From NCBI RefSeq assembly GCF_900115715.1, contig NZ_FOXM01000001.1, forward strand, positions 372,001-436,000: a stretch of 64,000 bases of DNA. Direction: 5' to 3'. Below, piece after piece: positions 51,538 through 62,618 of the stretch (the first letter of the stretch is position 1; each line of letters begins with the position of its first letter). Source of the DNA: Geopseudomonas sagittaria. Lineage in GTDB: Bacteria; Pseudomonadota; Gammaproteobacteria; Pseudomonadales; Pseudomonadaceae. The notes under the pieces were generated by a model. It saw only the letters and a program-made list of their open reading frames with translations, was not told the origin of the DNA and ran no database searches. The position numbers were made by a program, and so were the translations under genes.

Positions 51538-52440
51538 TCAGTGACGACCCAGCAGATCGGCCAGCGCCGCCTCCAGGTCGGGAAAACGAAATTGGTAGCC
51601 GGCATCCAGGGTGCGTCGGGGCTGCAGGTGCTGGCCGCCGAGCAGCAGATCGGACATCTCGCCGAGCGCCAGGCGCAGCACGCAGGCCGGCGCCGGCAGC
51701 AGTGCCGGGCGGCGCAGCACGCGCCCCAGGGTACGGGCGAACTCGGCGTTGCGCACCGCATTCGGCGCGCAGGCATTATAGGGACCGCGGCATTCCTCGT
51801 GCTGCAGCAGGAAGTCGATCAGGTGGACCTCGTCCTCTATATGGATCCACGGCATCCACTGCCGGCCGCTGCCCATGCGTCCGCCGAGGCCGAGGCGGAA
51901 CGGCGGCAGCAGGCGCGCCAGCATGCCGGCATCGCGCGCCAGCACCGGGGCGGTGCGCACCAGCACCACGCGGATGCCCAGCTCCTCGGCGCGCAGCGCG
52001 GCCTCCTCCCAGGCGAAGCACAGTTCGCTGGCGAAATCCTCGCTGCCCGCGGGGCTGTCCTCGTCGAGACGACGCTCGCCGCCGTCGCCGTACCAGCCCA
52101 CCGCCGAGCCGGACACCAGCACCCGCGGCTTGAGCGGGCGGCTGGCCAGCCAGTCGACCAGCTGGCGGGTCAGATCGATGCGGCTGTCCCAGAGCAACTG
52201 GCGCCGCTTGGTGGTCCACGGCCGGTCGGCGATCGGCGCGCCGGCCAGGTTGACCACCGCGTCCAGCGCCTCGCCGGCCTCCAGCTCGTCGAGGCGGCCG
52301 ATACCCCGCGCCCCGCTGCACAGCTTCGCCACCTTCTCGGGGCTGCGACTCCAGACCACCAGTTGATGTCCTTGCGCCGCCCACAGGCGACACAGCGCGC
52401 GGCCAATCAGGCCAGTGCCGCCGGTCAGCAGAATCCGCAT
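51538..52440 (-). CDS. TIGR01777-family SDR epimerase-like protein
   Basis: The 300-residue protein has an N-terminal Rossmann fold with GGTGLIGRAL and belongs to the extended SDR family TIGR01777 (E. coli YfcH type). It also has VNLAGAPIADRPWT, VSGSAVGWYGDGGERRLDE and a C-terminal DUF1731-like segment (ALLPAPACVLRLALGEMSDLLL). The substrate is unknown. The ATG at 52440 has GGAGAT upstream. In P. putida a relative of this gene sits in the light-induced cluster next to hemH. Confidence 0.88.
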   Translation of the reverse strand: MRILLTGGTGLIGRALCRLWAAQGHQLVVWSRSPEKVAKLCSGARGIGRLDELEAGEALDAVVNLAGAPIADRPWTTKRRQLLWDSRIDLTRQLVDWLASRPLKPRVLVSGSAVGWYGDGGERRLDEDSPAGSEDFASELCFAWEEAALRAEELGIRVVLVRTAPVLARDAGMLARLLPPFRLGLGGRMGSGRQWMPWIHIEDEVHLIDFLLQHEECRGPYNACAPNAVRNAEFARTLGRVLRRPALLPAPACVLRLALGEMSDLLLGGQHLQPRRTLDAGYQFRFPDLEAALADLLGRH

Positions 52441-52563: not shown

Positions 52564-52587
52564 TGTACAATTCAATGATGATGTATA
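52564..52587. promoter_or_regulatory. LitR/PplR-type operator in the divergent region 52441-52635
   Basis: TGTACA (52564-52569), 12 bases, and TGTATA (52582-52587) fit the PplR1 consensus from P. putida, TGTACA-N12-TGTA(C/T)A. The site is flanked by an outer dyad TTGGACC (52549-52555) and GGTCCAA (52593-52599). It lies between the TIGR01777-hemH pair and the FAD oxidoreductase-Trp-rich pair and could control both directions. Confidence 0.85.
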
Positions 52588-52626
52588 AGTTTGGTCCAAG
52601 GATTAGCCTGTAGTCTCAGCATTTGA

Positions 52627-53631
<1,005 letters not shown>

Positions 53632-53638
53632 GCCGGCC

Positions 53639-53854
53639 ATGCAGCGGATCAACCCCGCCAAGCTGCACCTCTCCAAGTGGACGGCAGTGCAGCCGGTCAA
53701 TCGCGAGAAGCACTTCCTGGTCACCGAACTGTACCGTGACGAGGAAGGCGTGGTGCTGGCCATCGAACTGCAGGCGGTGCTCACCGGCCGCAGCCAACGC
53801 TGCGACTGGCGCACTTTGAAGGACGCCAGCCACTGGCGGATGGGCTGGCACTGA
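53639..53854 (+). CDS. TIGR02450-family Trp-rich small protein
   Basis: The 71-residue protein fits the TIGR02450 family: KLHLSKWTAVQPVNREKHFLVT, then a central part, and RCDWRTLKDASHWRMGWH at the end. Its function is unknown. It lies 7 bases after the FAD oxidoreductase gene and is often found in light- or photolyase-linked clusters. Confidence 0.85.
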   Translation: MQRINPAKLHLSKWTAVQPVNREKHFLVTELYRDEEGVVLAIELQAVLTGRSQRCDWRTLKDASHWRMGWH

Positions 53855-53897: not shown

Positions 53898-53921
53898 TGT
53901 ACAAAGTATTTGACCTGTACA
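53898..53921. promoter_or_regulatory. LitR/PplR-type operator 1 of the litR-phr operon
   Basis: TGTACA (53898-53903), a 12-base spacer and TGTACA (53916-53921) match the PplR1 consensus perfectly. The spacer contains the -35 TTGACC (53910-53915), so a bound repressor would block the promoter. Confidence 0.88.
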
Positions 53922-53937
53922 ACACATGCCCTATGAT
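53910..53937 (+). promoter_or_regulatory. Promoter of the litR-phr-cfa operon
   Basis: TTGACC (53910-53915) and TATGAT (53932-53937) are 16 bp apart, a good sigma-70 type promoter. It is framed by operator 1 (over the -35) and operator 2 (just after the start, about 53945), so it looks built to be repressed. Confidence 0.8.
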
Positions 53938-53947
53938 GAGGCTGTGT

Positions 53948-53971
53948 TGTACAGAAATCACTGCTTGTACA
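53948..53971. promoter_or_regulatory. LitR/PplR-type operator 2 of the litR-phr operon
   Basis: TGTACA (53948-53953), a 12-base spacer and TGTACA (53966-53971) make a second perfect site. It lies 50 bp from operator 1, centre to centre, about five helical turns. A further single TGTACA at 53989-53994 has no partner at 12 bp. Confidence 0.88.
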
Positions 53972-54016
53972 GGTTGCGCCCGCGCTGCTGTACAAGCCGC
54001 AGCCCAGGTGCCCGCC

Positions 54017-54976
54017 ATGACCGCCGCCCAGCCACCCCGCCTCAAACTCGCCATCAGCGCCTGCCTGCTCGGCAACGAGGTGCGCTACAACGGCGGCCAC
54101 AAGCAGTCGCAGCTGTGCAGCCAGACCCTGGCGCGCTACTTCGACTTCCAGCCACTCTGCCCGGAAATGGCCATCGGCCTGGGCGCCCCGCGCGAGCCGA
54201 TCCGCCTGGTCGGCGATGCCCAGGCGCCGCGCGCGGTCGGCACCGTCACCCGCACCCTCGACGTCACCGAGGCGCTGGTCGGCTACGGCGAGCGCATGGC
54301 CAGCCAGCTTGCCGACATCAGCGGGCTGATCGTCATGCAGAAGTCGCCGTCCTGCGGCATGGAACGGGTCAAGGTCTACCAGGACGACGGCCGCCCGGCC
54401 GAGAAGGGCCAGGGCCTGTTCACCGCGACCATCGCCCGCCTGCGCCCGGAGTTGCCGATCGAGGAAGACGGCCGCCTCAACGATCCGGTGCTGCGCGAGA
54501 ACTTCATCGCCCGCGTCTATGCCTACGGCGACTGGCAGCGCCTGTGCGCCGAGGGCCTGACCCGCAAGGCGATCATCGCCTTCCACTCGCGGCACAAGTA
54601 CCTGCTGATGGCCCACAACCCGCTCAAGTACCGCGAGCTGGGTCGCCTGCTGGCCGGCATCGGCGAGCACGATCCCGCCGAGCTGGGCCCGCGCTACTTC
54701 AGCGCGCTGATGGCGGCGCTGCAGAAGTGCGCCACCCGCGGCACCCACGCCAACGTCCTGCAGCACCTGTCCGGCTACCTGCGCCGCGCCCTGCCCAGCG
54801 AGGAGCGCCGCGAGATCCAGCAGCTGATCGAGCAGTACCGCGCAGGCACGGTGCCGCTGGTGGTGCCGCTGACCCTGCTCAAGTACCACTTCCGCCGCCA
54901 CCCGGACCGCTACATCGCGCTGCAGGCGTACATGCAGCCGCACCCGCATGAACTCGGCCTGCGCAACGCGATATGA
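54017..54976 (+). CDS. DUF523-DUF1722 (YbgA-like) protein
   Basis: The 319-residue protein joins DUF523 (about 10-155, ISACLLGNEVRYNGGHK and MQKSPSCGMERVK) to a C-terminal DUF1722 domain (about 190-315, FHSRHKYLLMAHNPLKYRELG). The conserved Cys and Asn/His residues suggest metal or nucleotide binding, but no reaction is known. The ATG at 54017 is used; an earlier ATG in the same frame falls in the operator region. The next gene begins at its stop codon. It is a regular neighbour of photolyase genes in proteobacteria. Confidence 0.88.
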   Translation: MTAAQPPRLKLAISACLLGNEVRYNGGHKQSQLCSQTLARYFDFQPLCPEMAIGLGAPREPIRLVGDAQAPRAVGTVTRTLDVTEALVGYGERMASQLADISGLIVMQKSPSCGMERVKVYQDDGRPAEKGQGLFTATIARLRPELPIEEDGRLNDPVLRENFIARVYAYGDWQRLCAEGLTRKAIIAFHSRHKYLLMAHNPLKYRELGRLLAGIGEHDPAELGPRYFSALMAALQKCATRGTHANVLQHLSGYLRRALPSEERREIQQLIEQYRAGTVPLVVPLTLLKYHFRRHPDRYIALQAYMQPHPHELGLRNAI

Positions 54977-54990
54977 ACGGAGCACCGGCC

Positions 54991-55956
54991 ATGCACGACC
55001 ACTCGCCCCAGCCCCTCCCTGAAGGCCCACTCGCCGAGGACGCCGCGCTGACGCCCGAGCAGCAGGCCGAAGGCTGGCTGCCGATCCGCGAGGTGGCGCG
55101 GCAGACCGGGGTCAACCCGGTGACCCTGCGCGCCTGGGAGCGCCGCTACGGCCTGATCGTGCCGCAGCGCACCAGCAAGGGCCACCGCCTGTATGGTCAG
55201 GCGCACGTCGAGCGCATCCAGGCGATCCTCACCTGGCTCAACCGCGGCGTGGCGGTCAGCCAGATCCGCGACCTGCTCGACCACGACGCGCCGCCCGCCG
55301 GCAGCGCCGACGGGCCTTGGGACGCCCTGCGCGGCGAGCTGCTCGAGGCCGTCGCCACGCTGGCCGAGCGCCGCCTCGACGATGCCTACAACCGCGCCCT
55401 GGCGCTGTATCCGCCGCAGCCGCTGTGCCGCCACCTGCTGCTGCCGCTGCTCGCCGAGCTGGAGCAGCGCTGGCAGGGTCAGTTCGGCGCGGCGCTGGAG
55501 CGGGTGTTCGTCCGCTCCTGGCTGCGCAGCCGGCTCGGCGCACGGGTCTACCACAACAACCGCCAGCTGCAGGGCGCCCCGCTGCTGCTCGCCAACCTGT
55601 CGGAACTGCCGATGGAACCCGGCCTGTGGCTGTGCGCCTGGCTGCTCAGCGACAGCCAGTGCCCGGTCGAGGTGCTCGACTGGACGGTGCCGGCGGGCGA
55701 GCTGAGCCTGGCCGTCGAGCGCCTGCAGCCACGCGCCGTGCTGCTGTATTCCAGCCAGGCGCTGGACAGCCAGCAGCTGCGCCGCCAGCTGCCGCGCCTG
55801 CATGCCGGCTGTGGCGTGCCGCTGCTGCTGGCCGGACCAGCCGCGCAGATCCACCGCGACGAGCTGGCCGCCCTCGAGCGCCTGGCGCTGGTCGACTCGC
55901 CGCTCGACGCCCACCACTACCTGCACCAGCGCGGCCTGTTCGCCGCCGCCTCCTGA
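54991..55956 (+). CDS. litR: LitR/PplR-type MerR-family light-response regulator (class II)
   Basis: LitR/CarH proteins repress light-response genes in the dark; class II members such as P. putida PplR act with LOV proteins and do not bind B12. The protein has a MerR winged helix-turn-helix (IREVARQTGVNPVTLRAWERRYG) and a C-terminal domain of the CarH type. The B12 motif DxHxxG is absent, and the W-x9-EH motif appears as W177-x9-Y187-H188, so B12 sensing is unlikely. The start at 54991 has GGAG 8 bases upstream; an ATG at 54973 overlapping the previous stop is an alternative. It probably represses its own operon through the operators at 53898-53971. No LOV gene is in the window. Confidence 0.9.
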   Translation: MHDHSPQPLPEGPLAEDAALTPEQQAEGWLPIREVARQTGVNPVTLRAWERRYGLIVPQRTSKGHRLYGQAHVERIQAILTWLNRGVAVSQIRDLLDHDAPPAGSADGPWDALRGELLEAVATLAERRLDDAYNRALALYPPQPLCRHLLLPLLAELEQRWQGQFGAALERVFVRSWLRSRLGARVYHNNRQLQGAPLLLANLSELPMEPGLWLCAWLLSDSQCPVEVLDWTVPAGELSLAVERLQPRAVLLYSSQALDSQQLRRQLPRLHAGCGVPLLLAGPAAQIHRDELAALERLALVDSPLDAHHYLHQRGLFAAAS

Positions 55957-55968
55957 GGATCGAAGCCC

Positions 55969-57405
55969 ATGACCCGCCTCGTCTGGCTGCGCAGCGACCT
56001 GCGCGTGCGCGACAACACCGCTCTGGCCGCCGCGGCCGCCGCCGGCAACGGCCCGCTGCTGGCGGTCTGGCTGATCACGCCGGCGCAGTGGCGAGCCCAC
56101 GACGACGCGCCGTGCAAGGTCGACTTCTGGCTGCGCAATCTCGCCGAACTCTCGCGCAATCTCGCGGCGCTGAACATCCCGCTGCTGCTGCGCAGCGCCG
56201 AGCGCTGGGACGACGCGCCCGCCGTGCTGCTGCAACTGTGCCGCGAGCACGCCATCGAGGCGGTGCACGCCAACGCCGAATACGGCGTGCACGAACAGCG
56301 CCGCGACCAGGCGGTGGCCGCCGCCCTGCAGGCTGCCGGCATCGCCTGGCACAGCCATCTCGACCAGCTGCTGTTCGCCCCCGGCAGCGTGCTGACCAAG
56401 AGCGGCGGCTACTTCCAGGTGTTCAGCCAGTTCCGCAAGGTCTGCTATGCGCGCCTGGCGCAAAGCCTGCCGGCGCTGCAGGCGTTGCCGCGCATCCAGG
56501 CGCCGAACGGCATCGCCGGCGATCCCGTGCCGACCGCCATCGACGGCTTCCCCACGCCCAGCCAGAGCCTGCGCCAGCTGTGGCCGGCCGGCGAGGCGGC
56601 GGCGCACCGCCAGCTGGCGACCTTCGCCGACCAGCACCTGCAGTGGTACCACAACGAGCGCGACTTCCCCGCCAAGCCCGGCACCAGCGGCCTGTCGCCC
56701 TACCTGGCCGCTGGCGTGCTGTCGCCGCGCCAGTGCCTGCACGCGGCGCTGGCGGTCAACGGCGGCGAGTTCGCCGACGGCAATCCCGGGGTGGTCACCT
56801 GGATCAGCGAGCTGCTGTGGCGCGAGTTCTACAAGCACATCCTGGTCGGCTACCCGCGCGTTTCGATGGGCCGCGCCTTCCGCCGCGAGACCGAAGCGCT
56901 GGCCTGGCGCGATGCGCCGGAAGATCTGGAGGCCTGGCAGCAGGGCCGCACCGGCATTCCCATCGTCGATGCGGCGATGCGCCAGCTGCTGGCCACCGGC
57001 TGGATGCACAACCGCCTGCGCATGGTCGTCGCCATGTTCCTGACCAAGAACCTGTTGATCGACTGGCGGCACGGCGAGCGCTGGTTCATGCGGCAGCTGA
57101 TCGACGGCGACCTGGCCGCCAACAACGGCGGCTGGCAGTGGAGCGCCTCCACCGGCACCGACGCGGCGCCCTACTTCCGCATCTTCAATCCGCTGACCCA
57201 AGCGGAGCGCTTCGACCCGGACGGCACCTTCGTCCGCCAGTGGCTGCCCGAGCTGGCCGGCGTGGACAAGCGCGACATCCACAACCCGGCGGCGCTGGGC
57301 GGGCTGTTCGGTCTGCCCAACTACCCGCGGCCGATCGTCGACCTGGCCCGTTCGCGCGAGCGCGCCCTGGCGGCGTTCAAGGCGCTGGATACGCAGCCCG
57401 CCTGA
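55969..57405 (+). CDS. phr: Deoxyribodipyrimidine photolyase
   Basis: The photolyase repairs UV-made cyclobutane pyrimidine dimers with blue light. The 478-residue protein has the N-terminal antenna domain (LVWLRSDLRVRDNTAL), and the C-terminal FAD domain with GTSGLSPYLAAG, RMVVAMFLTKNLLIDWR and NNGGWQWSASTGTDAAPYFRIFNP, which contain the Trp residues for electron transfer. Its class I CPD type fits these motifs. It starts 12 bases after litR and is the main repair gene of the operon. Confidence 0.97.
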   Translation: MTRLVWLRSDLRVRDNTALAAAAAAGNGPLLAVWLITPAQWRAHDDAPCKVDFWLRNLAELSRNLAALNIPLLLRSAERWDDAPAVLLQLCREHAIEAVHANAEYGVHEQRRDQAVAAALQAAGIAWHSHLDQLLFAPGSVLTKSGGYFQVFSQFRKVCYARLAQSLPALQALPRIQAPNGIAGDPVPTAIDGFPTPSQSLRQLWPAGEAAAHRQLATFADQHLQWYHNERDFPAKPGTSGLSPYLAAGVLSPRQCLHAALAVNGGEFADGNPGVVTWISELLWREFYKHILVGYPRVSMGRAFRRETEALAWRDAPEDLEAWQQGRTGIPIVDAAMRQLLATGWMHNRLRMVVAMFLTKNLLIDWRHGERWFMRQLIDGDLAANNGGWQWSASTGTDAAPYFRIFNPLTQAERFDPDGTFVRQWLPELAGVDKRDIHNPAALGGLFGLPNYPRPIVDLARSRERALAAFKALDTQPA

Positions 57406-57421
57406 GCGGAGGAGCACGACC

Positions 57422-57859
57422 ATGAGCGATTTCCTGCACGCCTTCGCCCGCCGTTTCGCCGCGCTGGACAAGGACAACCTCGCGCACCTCGGCGAGCTGT
57501 ACAGCCTTGATGCGCTGTTCATCGATCCGCTGCACGAGATCCGCGGCCTGGCGGCGCTGCAGCGCTATTTCGCCGAGCTGTACGCCAACGTGCGCGACCT
57601 GCACTTCGAGTTCCACGGTTTCGACACCGTGCGCGAGGGCGGCAACGAGGGCGAAGGCTACCTGCGCTGGACCCTGAGCTACCGCCACCCGCGCCTGGCC
57701 GGCGGCCGGCTGATCCGCGTCGCCGGCTGCTCGCACCTGCTGTGGAACGACGGCAAGGTCTACCGCCACCACGACTATTTCGACGCCGGCGCGCTGCTCT
57801 ACGAGCACCTGCCGGTATTCGGCCGGGTCATCGCCTGGCTGAAGAGGAGGCTGGCATGA
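57422..57859 (+). CDS. NTF2-like (SnoaL-type) protein
   Basis: The 145-residue protein has the cone-shaped NTF2-like fold signature: DALFIDPLHEIRGLAALQRYFAELYANV and HLLWNDGKVYRHHDYFDAGALLYEHLP. Such proteins bind small hydrophobic molecules or act as isomerases. It lies 16 bases after phr and overlaps the SDR gene by 4, and it belongs to the lipid-gene set found with cfa homologues in light- or singlet-oxygen-regulated clusters. Confidence 0.85.
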   Translation: MSDFLHAFARRFAALDKDNLAHLGELYSLDALFIDPLHEIRGLAALQRYFAELYANVRDLHFEFHGFDTVREGGNEGEGYLRWTLSYRHPRLAGGRLIRVAGCSHLLWNDGKVYRHHDYFDAGALLYEHLPVFGRVIAWLKRRLA

Positions 57860-58641
57860 ACACCCCCACCCACGACGGCAAACGCATCTGGCTGACCGGC
57901 GCCAGCAGCGGCATCGGCGCCGCCCTGGCCGAGCAGTTGCTGCAGCGCGGCCAGCGCCTGGCGCTCAGCGCGCGGCGCCGCGAGCCGCTCGACGCCCTCG
58001 CTACGCGCTGGCCCGGGCAGGTGCTGGTGCTGCCGGGCGATCTCACCGATCCCGTGGCGGTCGGCGCCATCGCCGCGCAGATCGACCAGGCCTGGGGAGC
58101 GCTGGACATGGCCATTCTCAACGCCGGCACCTGCGAGTACCTCGACGTGCGCGCCTTCGAGGCGGCGATGGTCGAGCGGGTGGTGAACAGCAACCTGCTG
58201 GCCGCCGCCCACTGCATCGAGGCCGCCCTGCCGCTGCTGCGCCGCGGTCACCAGCCGCTGCTGGCCGGGGTGGCCAGCGCGGTGACCTTCCTGCCGCTGC
58301 CGCGCGCCGAGGCCTACGGCGCCTCCAAGGCGGCGCTGCGCTACCTGCTGCAGTCGCTGCGCATCGACCTGGCCGCCGAGGGCATCGCCGTCACCCTGAT
58401 CAGCCCCGGTTTCGTCGACACCCCGCTGACTCGGCGCAACGACTTCGCCATGCCGATGCGCTGGCCCGCCGAAAAGGCCGCCCGGCATATCGCCGCGCGG
58501 CTGGAACAACGCCCGCTGGAAATCGCCTTCCCCACGCCGTTCATCGCCCTGTTGCTGCTGCTCGCCCACCTGCCCGGGCGCCTGCAACTGGCCCTGACGC
58601 GGCGCATGAGCCGCACTTCGCCCAAGGATGCCACCCGATGA
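57856..58641 (+). CDS. Short-chain dehydrogenase/reductase
   Basis: The 261-residue protein has the SDR cofactor motif GASSGIGAALAEQL, the structural NAG motif (LNAGTCEY) and the catalytic YGASK (Y-x3-K), preceded by the Ser in VASAVTFLPLP. A C-terminal hydrophobic stretch (PFIALLLLLAHLPGRLQLAL) may hold it at the membrane, in keeping with a lipid substrate. It overlaps both neighbours by 4 bases (ATGA). Confidence 0.9.
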   Translation: MNTPTHDGKRIWLTGASSGIGAALAEQLLQRGQRLALSARRREPLDALATRWPGQVLVLPGDLTDPVAVGAIAAQIDQAWGALDMAILNAGTCEYLDVRAFEAAMVERVVNSNLLAAAHCIEAALPLLRRGHQPLLAGVASAVTFLPLPRAEAYGASKAALRYLLQSLRIDLAAEGIAVTLISPGFVDTPLTRRNDFAMPMRWPAEKAARHIAARLEQRPLEIAFPTPFIALLLLLAHLPGRLQLALTRRMSRTSPKDATR

Positions 58642-59885
58642 AAATCGCCATTGTCGGCACCGGCATCGCCGGCCTGACCACCGCCCACCTGCTCGCCCGC
58701 CAGCACCAGCTGAGCGTGTTCGAGGCCGGCGACTGGATCGGCGGGCACACCCATACCGTGGACGTGACGGTGGACGGCCGCAAGCACGCGGTGGATACCG
58801 GCTTCATCGTGTTCAACGATTGGACCTATCCCAACTTCATCCGCCTGCTCGACCGGCTGGGGGTCGCCTCGCAGCCGACCGAGATGAGCTTCTCGGTGCA
58901 CGAACCGAGCAGCGGCCTGGAGTACAACGGCAACACCCTCAACAGCCTGTTCGCCCAGCGCAGCAACCTGCTGTCGCCGCGCTTCTGGGGCATGCTGCGC
59001 GACATCCTGCGCTTCAACCGCGAGGCGCTGGCGGATCTCGGCAGCGGCCGCCTGCCGGCCGACATCACCCTCGGCCGTTACCTGGCCGAGCGCGGCTATG
59101 GCCAGCGCTTCATCGACCACTACATCGTGCCGATGGGCGCGGCGATCTGGTCGATGTCGCTGGCCGGCATGCTGGAGTTCCCGCTGGAGTTCTTCGTGCG
59201 CTTCTTCAAGAACCACGGCCTGCTGTCGGTGAACGACCGGCCGCAGTGGCGGGTGATTCAGGGCGGCTCGCGCAGCTACATCGAGCCGCTGATCGCGGGC
59301 TTTGCTGACGCCATCCGCCTCAACTGCCCGGTGCTGATGGTCGAGCGCGACGCCGACGGGGTGACGGTGCACAGCGCCGCCGGCCGCGAGCGCTTCGACC
59401 GGATCGTCTTCGCCTGCCACAGCGACCAGGCGCTGGCGCTGCTCGCCGCGCCGAGCGCGGCGGAGCGCGAGATCCTCGGCGCCCTGCCCTACGCCGACAA
59501 TGACGTGCTGCTGCACACCGACATCCGCCTGCTGCCGCGTCGTCCGCTTGCCTGGGCGAGCTGGAACTACCGCCTCGGCGGCGACCCGCGCCAGCCGGCG
59601 GCGCTGACCTACAACATGAACATCCTCCAGGGCATCCGGGCGCCACAGACCTTGTGCGTCAGCCTCAACCAGAACGCGGCCATCGACCCGCAGCGGGTGC
59701 TCGGCCGCTTCAACTACGCCCACCCGCAGTACAGCCTGGCCGGCATGGCCGCCCAGGCGCGCTGGCGCGAACTGCACGGCGCCCAGCACAGCTACTACTG
59801 CGGCGCCTACTGGGCCAACGGCTTCCACGAGGACGGCGTGGTCAGCGCCCTGCGCGTCGCCGAAGCCTTCGGGGAACGACTGTGA
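58638..59885 (+). CDS. FAD-dependent oxidoreductase (amine-oxidase superfamily), cfa-linked
   Basis: The 415-residue protein has the N-terminal FAD motif IAIVGTGIAGLTTAHLLA and the segment GGHTHTVDVTVDGRKHAVDTGFIVFND, a hallmark of the family always found with DUF1365 and cfa genes. The conserved C-terminal FAD contact is present (YYCGAYWANGFHEDGVVSALRVA). It probably oxidises or reduces a fatty-acyl or lipid intermediate, but the reaction is not known to me. It is overlapped by 4 bases on each side. Confidence 0.9.
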   Translation: MKIAIVGTGIAGLTTAHLLARQHQLSVFEAGDWIGGHTHTVDVTVDGRKHAVDTGFIVFNDWTYPNFIRLLDRLGVASQPTEMSFSVHEPSSGLEYNGNTLNSLFAQRSNLLSPRFWGMLRDILRFNREALADLGSGRLPADITLGRYLAERGYGQRFIDHYIVPMGAAIWSMSLAGMLEFPLEFFVRFFKNHGLLSVNDRPQWRVIQGGSRSYIEPLIAGFADAIRLNCPVLMVERDADGVTVHSAAGRERFDRIVFACHSDQALALLAAPSAAEREILGALPYADNDVLLHTDIRLLPRRPLAWASWNYRLGGDPRQPAALTYNMNILQGIRAPQTLCVSLNQNAAIDPQRVLGRFNYAHPQYSLAGMAAQARWRELHGAQHSYYCGAYWANGFHEDGVVSALRVAEAFGERL

Positions 59886-60679
59886 ACAGCGCGCTGTACA
59901 GCGGCTGGGTGCGCCATCGCCGCGTGCGGCCGCGGGCGCATGCGTTCCGCTACCGCATCGGCCTGCTGTACCTCGACCTCAGCGAGCAGGACGCGCTGTT
60001 CGGTCTGTCGCCGCTGGTCGGGCCTGGCCGCTTCGCGCCGCTGTCGTTTCGCCAGGGCGACTACCTGCCGCAGCTCACCGGCCAGGGCATGGCGCTGAGC
60101 GATGCGGTGCGCCAGTGCGTCGGCCAGGCGCTGGGCCAGGCGCCGCAGGGGCGCATCTGCCTGCTCACCCAGCCGCGCTGCTGGGGGCTGACCTTCAACC
60201 CGGTGAGTTTCTTCTACTGCTTCGACGAAGGCGGCCAGCTGGCGGCGATCCTCTGCGAGGTCAGCAACACGCCCTGGCGCGAGCGCTACCACTACGTGCT
60301 GCCGGCCGCGGGCAGCGGCAGCCAGCACTTCGCCGTGGCCAAGGCCTTCCACGTCTCGCCGTTCCTGCCGCGCGAGCTGGAGTACCGCATGCATTTCAGC
60401 GCGCCGGGGCGGCGCCTCGGCGTGCACATGGAGGACCACGACGCCGAGGGCCGCCTGTTCGACGCCACCCTCAGCCTCGAACGCAGCCCGCTGGATCGCG
60501 CCGGCCTGCATCGCCACCTGCGCGCCTTCCCGTGGATGAGCGCGAAAACCGTGCTCGGCATCTACTGGCAGGCCCTGCGCCTGGCGCTCAAGCGCGTGCC
60601 GCTGTTCTCCCACCAGCCGGCGGACGGCGACTGCCGCGTCGCCACCCGGATCCAGGAGCAAGCCCATGAAGACCTCTAG
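59882..60679 (+). CDS. DUF1365 family protein
   Basis: The 265-residue protein fits DUF1365: YSGWVRHRRVRPRAHAFRYRIGLLYLDL, RCWGLTFNPVSFFYCFD, KAFHVSPFLPRELEYRMHF and FPWMSAKTVLGIYWQALRLALK. It starts with a GTG at 59882, overlapping the previous stop (GTGA), and ends inside the cfa start region by 14 bases. Members are always found with cfa-like genes and are thought to act on membrane lipids; the function is unproven. Confidence 0.9.
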   Translation: MNSALYSGWVRHRRVRPRAHAFRYRIGLLYLDLSEQDALFGLSPLVGPGRFAPLSFRQGDYLPQLTGQGMALSDAVRQCVGQALGQAPQGRICLLTQPRCWGLTFNPVSFFYCFDEGGQLAAILCEVSNTPWRERYHYVLPAAGSGSQHFAVAKAFHVSPFLPRELEYRMHFSAPGRRLGVHMEDHDAEGRLFDATLSLERSPLDRAGLHRHLRAFPWMSAKTVLGIYWQALRLALKRVPLFSHQPADGDCRVATRIQEQAHEDL

Positions 60680-61940
60680 CCTGACCGCCTCCCGCGCCCG
60701 CCTGGCCGACGGCCTCGCCGCCGGCCTGCTGCGCCGCGCCGTGCTGCGCCAGCTCGGCCAGCTGCGCCGTGGCCGCCTGCTGCTGGTCGAGGGCGACGAG
60801 CGGCACAGCTTCGGCGACCCGCACGCCGCGCTGCACGGCGAGATCCACATCCACGACAGCGCCGCCTGGGGCCTGGTCGCCGGCAACGGTTCGATCGGCG
60901 CCGGCGAGGCCTACATCCACGGCTACTGGAGCAGCCCGGAGCTGACCGCGGTGATCCGCGTGCTGGTCGCCAACCTCGCGGTGCTCGACGCCCTCGAGGG
61001 TGGCCTGGCCGCCCTCGGCCGCCCCGTGCTGCGCGCCCTGCACTGGTTGAACCGCAACTCGCGGGCCGGCGCGCAGAAGAACATCGCCGCCCACTACGAT
61101 CTCGGCAACGAGCTGTTCGAGGCCTTCCTCGACCGCACCATGATGTACTCGGCGGCGATGTTCCTCTCCCCCGCCGACAGCCTCGAGCAGGCGCAGCTCA
61201 ACAAGCTGGAGCGCATCTGCCAGAAGCTCGACCTCCAGCCCAGCGACCACCTGCTGGAGATCGGCACCGGCTGGGGCAGCATGGCGCTGTACGCGGCCAG
61301 CCACTACGGCTGCCGGGTGACCACCACCACCCTGTCGCGCGAGCAGCACGCCTACACCGCGCGGCGCATCGCCGAGATGGGCCTGGAAGGTCGCGTCACC
61401 CTGCTGCTCAAGGACTACCGCGAGCTCGACGGCCAGTTCGACAAGCTGGTGTCGATCGAGATGATCGAGGCGGTCGGCCACCGCTACCTGCCCGAGTACT
61501 TCCGCCAGTGCGCGCAGCTGCTCAAGGCGGACGGGCTGATGCTGCTGCAGGCGATCACCATCCGCGACCAGCGCTACCGCCAGGCGTGCAACAGCGTCGA
61601 CTTCATCCAGCGCTACATCTTCCCCGGCGGCGCGCTGCCGTCGATCGAGGCGATGCTGACCAGCGTCAGCCGCGACACCGACATGAACCTGCTGCACCTC
61701 GAGGACTTCGGCGCCCACTACGCACGCACCCTGCGCCACTGGCACGACAACCTGCGCCAGGTGCGCGGCCACCTCGAGCAGCTCGGCTACGACGAGCACT
61801 TCTACCGGCTGTGGGAGTTCTACCTGTGCTACTGCGAGGGCGGCTTTCTCGAGCGCAGCATCGGCACGGTGCAGATGCTGCTGGCCAGACCCGAGGCGCG
61901 GCCGGCGCCGCTGCTGGGCCAGCTGGAGCGCAGCGGCTGA
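60666..61940 (+). CDS. Cyclopropane-fatty-acid-synthase-family methyltransferase
   Basis: CFA synthases add a methylene group from S-adenosylmethionine across the double bond of unsaturated acyl chains in phospholipids. The 424-residue protein has an N-terminal lipid-binding domain (EIHIHDSAAWGLVAGNGSIGAGEAYIHGYW), AHYDLGNELFEAFLDRTMMYSAAMF, the SAM site LLEIGTGWGSMAL, and the C-terminal CEGGFLERSIGTVQMLLARP. The same family contains enzymes of furan fatty-acid synthesis in light- or singlet-oxygen-induced clusters, so the product here could be a cyclopropane or furan fatty acid. It ends the tight lipid operon. Confidence 0.93.
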   Translation: MKTSSLTASRARLADGLAAGLLRRAVLRQLGQLRRGRLLLVEGDERHSFGDPHAALHGEIHIHDSAAWGLVAGNGSIGAGEAYIHGYWSSPELTAVIRVLVANLAVLDALEGGLAALGRPVLRALHWLNRNSRAGAQKNIAAHYDLGNELFEAFLDRTMMYSAAMFLSPADSLEQAQLNKLERICQKLDLQPSDHLLEIGTGWGSMALYAASHYGCRVTTTTLSREQHAYTARRIAEMGLEGRVTLLLKDYRELDGQFDKLVSIEMIEAVGHRYLPEYFRQCAQLLKADGLMLLQAITIRDQRYRQACNSVDFIQRYIFPGGALPSIEAMLTSVSRDTDMNLLHLEDFGAHYARTLRHWHDNLRQVRGHLEQLGYDEHFYRLWEFYLCYCEGGFLERSIGTVQMLLARPEARPAPLLGQLERSG

Positions 61941-62021: not shown

Positions 62022-62096
62022 CCTTGCCGCCCTGCGCGGCTGGCCCCGACCAGCCGAGGCAGCGACAATGCCGCCCCCATTCGCAAGGTCGTGACC

Positions 62097-62618
62097 ATGA
62101 ACCGCAAACTGCTGCTCAACGCCCTGCTGTTCCAGGCCGGCTGGTTCGCCTGTGTGTTCTCCACCCAGCAGCCGTTGCTGCTCGGCGTGCCGGTCATCGT
62201 GCTGCTGGCGCATTTCCTGTGGGTCGCCGATTGGCGCTCGGAAGGCCGCCTGGTGGCCAGCGTGCTGCTCGCCGGCAGCGCTCTGGACAGTCTGCTGCTG
62301 CAGTTCGGCGTGTTCGACTTCGGCGACGACCCGGCGCGGCGGCTGGTGCCGCTGTGGCTGGCGCTGCTCTGGGCCCTGTTCGCCACCACGCTGAACCACT
62401 GCCTGGCCTGGACCGCGCGGCCCTGGTGGCTGGGCAGCCTGCTCGGCGCCGTGGCCGGGCCGCTGTCCTACTGGGCAGGCGCCAGCATCGCCGGGGTCGG
62501 GTTGCCGCTGGGCAGCGCGCCGACCCTGCTGCTGCTCGCCGGCCTGTGGGCGCTGCTGATGCCGGTGCTGCACGGCTTTGCCGCGCTGTACCGCGAGCAG
62601 GCGCGGCTGCGCGGCTGA
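62097..62618 (+). CDS. DUF2878 family membrane protein
   Basis: The 173-residue protein has about five transmembrane helices (LLLNALLFQAGWFACVF, LLGVPVIVLLAHFLWVA, VASVLLAGSALDSLLLQFGVF and two more) and matches DUF2878, a family regularly found at the end of cfa-DUF1365 clusters. The longer open frame upstream runs through the REP region; the ATG at 62097 has AAGGTCGTG upstream. It is probably part of the lipid-modification unit, perhaps a membrane partner of the other enzymes. Confidence 0.88.
   Translation: MNRKLLLNALLFQAGWFACVFSTQQPLLLGVPVIVLLAHFLWVADWRSEGRLVASVLLAGSALDSLLLQFGVFDFGDDPARRLVPLWLALLWALFATTLNHCLAWTARPWWLGSLLGAVAGPLSYWAGASIAGVGLPLGSAPTLLLLAGLWALLMPVLHGFAALYREQARLRG

Follow-up and report, generated by a model that had tools for sequence, protein, structure and literature searches.

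What controls the nine-gene operon for photolyase, LitR and lipid modification in this stretch of Geopseudomonas sagittaria DNA, and what do the two perfect TGTACA-N12-TGTACA repeats that frame its promoter contribute? The window, by which we mean the whole stretch of 64,000 nucleotides that was analysed, holds the following elements at this promoter.

53898..53921, plus strand: candidate operator Site 1, TGTACA-N12-TGTACA, an exact match that overlaps the -35 element
53910..53915, plus strand: -35 element TTGACC, inside Site 1, with the right half-site directly after it
53932..53937, plus strand: -10 element TATGAT, spacer 16 from the -35 element
53948..53971, plus strand: candidate operator Site 2, TGTACA-N12-TGTACA, an exact match just beyond the probable transcription start
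53963..53997, plus strand: perfect 10-bp inverted repeat between the right half-site of Site 2 and the third TGTACA
53989..53994, plus strand: isolated third TGTACA, poorly kept among relatives

Both repeats, which a sequence-only reading of this DNA had put forward as perfect operators, are exact and stand well above chance: 100 dinucleotide shuffles of the window give an expectation of 0 for TGTACA-N12-TGTACA, the whole 4.6-Mb genome contains the exact pattern at Site 1 and Site 2 only, and the reversed pattern, used as a control, returns 0 matches in the same genome. The hexamer TGTACA occurs 13 times in the window against 2.65 expected. By sequence, both sites satisfy the published consensus T(G/A)TACA-N12-TGTA(C/T)A, and their N12 spacing fits the LitR/PplR type, as had been proposed. 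The TTGACC/TATGAT promoter with Site 1 over its -35 element is likewise present, and transcription probably starts at about 53944, judged from the position of the -10 element and the start mapped in P. mendocina. Edge to edge, a gap of 26 bp lies between the sites. The third TGTACA at 53989, described before as unpaired, is real but not unpaired, its surroundings forming with Site 2 an inverted repeat of arms GCTTGTACAG (53963-53972) and CTGTACAAGC (53988-53997) that is perfect over 10 bp. The genome search that the earlier reading had proposed confirms the exact pair, finds 9 one-mismatch operator sites and adds a further consensus site at 52564-52587, which that reading had overlooked.

With 54017 taken as the operon's first start codon, the genes downstream are as follows.

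54017..54976, plus strand: ybgA (the label used here), 2-thiouracil desulfurase-like with DUF1722, orthologue of PME6650 by place
54973..55956, plus strand: litR1, class II LitR, MerR HTH and B12-binding_2, without a B12-binding domain match
55969..57405, plus strand: phrB, deoxyribodipyrimidine photolyase
57422..57859, plus strand: SnoaL-like protein
57853..58641, plus strand: short-chain dehydrogenase
58638..59885, plus strand: the operon's FAD-dependent oxidoreductase
59879..60679, plus strand: DUF1365 protein, start uncertain
60666..61940, plus strand: cyclopropane-synthase-family methyltransferase, UfaM-like by operon position, order as PME6650-PME6610
62094..62618, plus strand: DUF2878 protein, start uncertain

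A one-mismatch operator-like sequence lies within the SnoaL-like gene (57498-57521; C37:429498).

The second gene indeed encodes a class II LitR, with a MerR HTH and a B12-binding_2-like region. Its closest solved relative is CarH, and this relationship, together with the B12-binding_2 match, would be in keeping with LitR1 being a B12 photosensor that senses light itself. We reject B12 sensing by LitR1 and hold such a role to be next to impossible: a domain search gave no match in LitR1 to the B12-binding domain, and in an alignment with positions counted by hand His177 of CarH is aligned with Met and His132 with a gap, both residues having cobalt roles in CarH (PMC10442372). B12 is stated to be unneeded in P. 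putida (PMC9758184). Against NCBIfam TransRegCarH, LitR1 scores 82.1 bits, below the 400-bit cut-off. The class I proteins (CarH/LitR of Thermus and Myxococcus) resemble the present system in their MerR HTH with a helical domain and in acting as dark repressors of light-induced genes, whereas they differ in carrying adenosyl-B12. On these sequence features, LitR1 would fall into class II of the LitR proteins and not into class I with CarH.

An orthologous promoter, P6650 of the pmlR1 operon, has been characterised in Pseudomonas mendocina NBRC 14162 (PMC9758184; what we take from this paper comes from selected passages of it, one of which names 'P6655', possibly a slip for P6650). The P. mendocina start was mapped by 5' RACE and CAGE, two TGTACA-N12-TGTACA sites lie over the -35 element and between the transcription start and the ATG, respectively, and the footprint is a single unbroken stretch from -54 to +37 (PMC9758184). 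PmlR2, a class II LitR, represses P6650 in vitro, illuminated PmSB-LOV relieves the repression, and light raises the pmlR1, phrB and ufaM transcripts 5.7- to 33-fold (PMC9758184). The purified repressor tested was the LOV-linked paralogue PmlR2 and not the LitR1 orthologue, and in gel shifts the illuminated PmlR2-LOV complex stayed on the DNA, a result that the authors discount, preferring BIAcore (PMC9758184). P6650 and the window share the nine-gene order PME6650-PME6610, the same two sites in the same placement and a TTGACY-N16-TATGAT promoter. Because genes, sites and placement agree, the window promoter is the orthologue of the characterised one, and the basic biology of the double operator is already known from this close relative. 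The window differs from P6650 in species, in its longer leader and in the extra TGTACA that forms the inverted repeat with Site 2. A further known system, that of PplR1-3 and PpSB-LOV in Pseudomonas putida KT2440 (Sumi et al. 2020, via PMC9758184), shares the consensus given above and likewise has photolyase, UfaM and FolE in its regulon; it comprises three PplR and two short LOV proteins, whereas the genome of the window has a single short LOV protein and two long matches to LitR.

That short LOV protein, absent from the earlier reading, is the probable light sensor, separate from LitR. Its gene stands beside a litR paralogue in a cluster on contig C20 (L097:2385-6681) made up of short LOV, LitR2, a DCC1-like protein, folM, folE and folX, a gene set similar to the surroundings of pmlR2 in P. 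mendocina (PMC9758184). The short LOV protein is 151 aa long, carries a DCRFLQ motif and scores 239.6 bits to the solved 'Sensory box protein' chain. LitR2 and LitR1 are 39% identical over 292 positions, with 32 of 38 residues identical in their HTH segments (PIREV to GHRLY). A possible operator of folM, TGTACA-N12-GATATA, ends 91 bp upstream of the gene and is two mismatches from the consensus; the P. mendocina counterpart is TGTACA-N12-GGTATA, 95 bp upstream of folM (PMC9758184). With these parts, the genome of the window has a complete LOV-LitR light switch gene set, in another Pseudomonas lineage.

We thus read Sites 1 and 2, with a probability of roughly 93%, as the operators of a blue-light-switched promoter that is repressed in the dark by class II LitR and relieved by short LOV. 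In the dark, LitR2, LitR1 or both would bind Site 1, over the -35 element, and Site 2, past the start, and the bound LitR would cover the promoter and exclude RNA polymerase. Under blue light, the separate short LOV-FMN protein would bind the HTH region of LitR and free it from the DNA, after which sigma-70 RNA polymerase would transcribe the nine genes, among them those for photolyase, LitR1 and lipid modification, while the third operator, discussed below, would extend this control to the neighbouring FAD-oxidoreductase gene. Binding, repression, LOV relief and light induction are taken from P. mendocina, and what the present genome contributes is sequence, gene content and conservation; from these we infer the same behaviour in this species, the acting LitR and the function of the third operator. 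Autoregulation is likely but not obligatory. With litR1 second in the operon, binding by LitR1 should bring it about, and the sites can persist with or without a LitR gene in the operon, as two genomes of the window's genus (G025 and G061) retain the double operator before ybgA with no litR match adjoining. In these two genomes, and in G009 and G077 of the same genus, the LitR1 homologue lies near the short LOV and LitR2 homologues, away from the photolyase operon (L203-L209, L213-L216). Light is maybe not the sole input either, since PP_0738-PP_0742, the homologous cluster of P. putida, rose together in co-culture while illumination stayed unchanged (PMC11014904).

Conservation of the operator pair was followed in several sets of relatives. 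Among 80 loci chosen by LitR similarity alone (L017-L096, picked regardless of operator pattern), 78 carry the pair with at most 2 mismatches per site; the exceptions are L056, whose Site 1 has a spacer of 13 bp, and L093, whose Site 2 is degenerate. Counting the window, the spacing in this LitR-fetched set is 50 bp in 62 loci, 49 in 8, 51 in 8 and 52 in 1. The strict pair pattern matches 122 of 298 family genomes and fails to match 176 (reversed control, 0), and it matches six of the eight genomes of the window's genus, G009 and G077 being the two others. For a closer comparison, 122 of 131 loci were placed. Left out were L140 and L141 and seven loci without the pair in the narrower search stretch, five of which do show it in the LitR-fetched survey; 50 loci (L101-L110 and L131-L170) had been picked by operator match, 40 of them hand-chosen among the matches listed. 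The spacing in the 122 placed loci is 50 bp in 85, 51 in 15, 49 in 14 and 52 in 3, with shorter spacings of 46 (three loci), 45 (one) and 44 (one). TTGAC plus any base occupies the -35 register in 117 of the 122, and 16 bp on, the -10 register reads TATGAT in 89 and TATGCT in 18. In 115 of the 122, TTGAC is combined with a spacing of 49-52 bp, and in such loci Site 2 begins 9-12 bp beyond the -10 register. TGTACA recurs within 60 bp downstream of Site 2 in 3 of the 122 placed loci, at the same offset in the window and in its nearest relative, P. linyingensis (L017), and at a different offset in L066. Two loci, L140 and L141, carry double operators built in the same way, and the 2.7 kb retrieved there gave no match to ybgA or litR.

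The sharp peak in these spacings (50 bp in 85 of 122, 49-52 bp in 117 of 122) is what would be seen if LitR oligomers at both sites touched and looped out the promoter, with helical phase setting the 50-bp distance, and from gel filtration the C-terminus of PmlR2 has been read by its authors as an oligomerisation domain (PMC9758184). Looping and blocking from both sides had been suggested as alternatives for this promoter. The published P. mendocina orthologue supports blocking (PMC9758184), whereas looping as the main mechanism is rejected and appears to us improbable. The 26 bp between the sites is very short for a loop, the published footprint runs continuously across this gap (PMC9758184), and spacings range over 44-52 bp, those of 44, 45 and 46 bp (5 of 122, 3 of these 5 also being without TTGAC in Site 1) lying about half a helical turn off. 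Furthermore, the sites are locked to the promoter, TTGAC in Site 1 going with a 49-52 bp spacing in almost every placed locus, so the constant distance is explained by promoter geometry without looping. Blocking of the promoter by LitR at both sites is the best-supported reading.

To the published system, the window brings two testable additions, a conserved third operator and covariation within Site 2. The third operator lies 1.3 kb upstream of the operon promoter, among these features.

51538..52440, minus strand: TIGR01777 oxidoreductase, divergent from the gene at 52636, alternative target of the third operator
52564..52587, unstranded: candidate third operator TGTACA-N12-TGTATA, in agreement with the published consensus, 48 bp before the start codon of the gene at 52636
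52581..52609, plus strand: putative promoter of the gene at 52636, ATGTAT (52581-52586) N17 TAGCCT (52604-52609), a weak sigma-70 match
52636..53631, plus strand: FAD-dependent amine-oxidase-like protein, presumed target of the third operator
53639..53854, plus strand: TIGR02450 Trp-rich protein

The putative -35 element ATGTAT overlaps the right half of the third operator, which, by its sequence and place, may bring the neighbouring flavoprotein gene into the light regulon. The site is added here relative to the main text of PMC9758184, in which a term search gave no hit for hemH, TIGR02450 or amine oxidase and met FAD-dependent solely in connection with PME6625, a gene within the operon. Among 95 loci with the FAD gene, 93 have the site at a corresponding offset, 12 of them exactly and 81 with one mismatch, the usual mismatch in relatives being TATACC in the left half. 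Of these 95 loci, LitR similarity supplied 80, the operator pair 7, and resemblance to the intergenic DNA itself the remaining 8; the window (L111) and two repeated entries (L112 and L117, which repeat L017 and L018) are among them. All 80 LitR-fetched loci carry the site, 2 exactly and 78 with one mismatch; the exceptions, G061 and G025 of the window's genus, have a 13-bp spacer. One identical 24-mer is shared by 47 of the 88 fluorescens-type rows; because the spacer is much alike there too, conservation by itself does not set the hexamers apart, whereas across eight genomes of the window's genus the spacer drifts and the hexamers stay. The third operator is also present in G009 and G077, even though their LitR1 homologue has another location. 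Another set, selected with an operator pattern (as were L171-L199), reaches genomes whose FAD protein is only 52-56% identical; here, the site lies within 160 bp in 10 of the 16 loci with the gene, 6 of the 16 being without it, and some sites are at other offsets. In the P. putida co-culture study, PP_0739 is named photolyase and PP_0740 PplR1 (PMC11014904). Judged by the order of the genes, PP_0742 should correspond either to the FAD-oxidoreductase gene or to the small gene next to it, and the joint rise of the cluster would then lend the third operator indirect support.

The third operator stands between both divergent genes and could instead, or in addition, control the TIGR01777-hemH genes. 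On the minus strand, the window and its nearest relative (L112/L017) have TTGAAT in the register of the -35 element of Site 1, which is compatible with such control, but TTGAAT is absent from L113-L118. Towards the FAD gene, by contrast, TAGCCT follows the right half after 17 bp and recurs in 8 of the 10 rows of the alignment with the window (L111 is the window, L112/L017 are one sequence, and L117/L018 are one sequence, both without TAGCCT). We consider control of the TIGR01777-hemH genes rather doubtful and take the FAD-oxidoreductase gene as the presumed target.

The second addition concerns the spacer of Site 2, which drifts among the relatives (L017-L170), yet positions 7/18, 8/17, 9/16 and 10/15 tend to complementarity. 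At 9/16, G-C (15), C-G (14), A-T (9) and T-A (7) are all represented in 81 distinct copies, that is, 45 of 81 are paired against 20.2 in shuffles, and 0 of 2000 shuffles reach this count. As a null, independent-site simulations were run on a LitR tree of 120 tips (120 of the 122 placed loci), which is approximate in using one rate per column and the LitR gene tree. The four pairs are paired in 289 of 480 cases against 174.3 (sd 24.0) in this null, with a largest simulation of 256 and 0 of 2000 reaching the observed value; taken singly, 32 (7/18), 11 (8/17), 0 (9/16) and 104 (10/15) of 2000 simulations do so. On the 120-tip tree, neither slid pairings nor the two adjacent positions further in exceed the null, and Site 1, a weak control whose right half hardly varies, gives 196 against 190.6 expected. 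Restriction to the 71 fluorescens-type tips leaves 198 of 284 paired against 121.4 (sd 18.7), with a largest simulation of 177 and again 0 of 2000 reaching the observed value. The signal in this subset is carried by 8/17 and 9/16 (0 of 2000 each), and 7/18 (395 of 2000) and 10/15 (162 of 2000) are unremarkable alone. Column composition and relatedness were rejected as sources of the covariation, the observed pairing exceeding the independent-site simulation. Drift in LitR specificity is an unlikely source, because the signal persists in the 71 tips, in which 37 of 44 HTH columns are at least 93% identical.

A hairpin at the 5' end of the mRNA is a natural reading, since Site 2 alone of the three operators is, by our placement of the start, transcribed from the promoter that it serves. 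In many pseudomonads Site 2 would then be dual, a LitR operator as DNA and a 5'-end stem-loop as RNA, with the covarying pairs lengthening the stem of the half-sites to at most 10 bp, closed by a 4-nt loop. Such an element would set both light repression and transcript stability or translation, and the lineage of the window would retain no more than the operator function and a short stem of the hexamers. We offer this reading tentatively, as possible rather than probable. On the transcribed strand, G-U is not favoured over A-C (G-U 36, null 58.4; A-C 62, null 77.1), and 5 of the double changes between sister tips left both sides paired, against 12 that did not. Site 2 of the window itself has G-U at 7/18, mismatches at 8/17 and 9/16 and A-T at 10/15. 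The leader RNA of the window folds with ordinary stability (z -0.10), and its predicted fold pairs both halves of Site 2 together and not the 10-bp inverted repeat. DNA template switching (quasipalindrome correction), which perfects inverted repeats, is another possible cause of the covariation. What speaks against it is the third operator, whose spacer is the same and whose hexamers are similar, yet whose inner cells pair at shuffle level (44 of 152, shuffles about 47, in a smaller sample with many rows of imperfect arms). If the RNA hairpin of Site 2 is true, a single DNA word is under selection at two levels; if template switching is true, the site is a natural example of a mutational process mimicking RNA structure.

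Elsewhere in the genome, a one-mismatch site, TGTACT-N12-TGTACA, is found on C29 (C29:103002; L099:4003-4026), 23 bp before the start of a DUF6482 gene that is followed by a PF04244 photolyase-related gene, labelled cryB-like here. An additional TGTACA lies just upstream of the C29 operator (L099). The LOV motif pattern NCRFLQG, which bypasses the short LOV protein with its DCRFLQ motif, finds a response-regulator/LOV-like PAS/GGDEF/EAL protein that carries it (L098:3223-5367), possibly a light-gated c-di-GMP enzyme.
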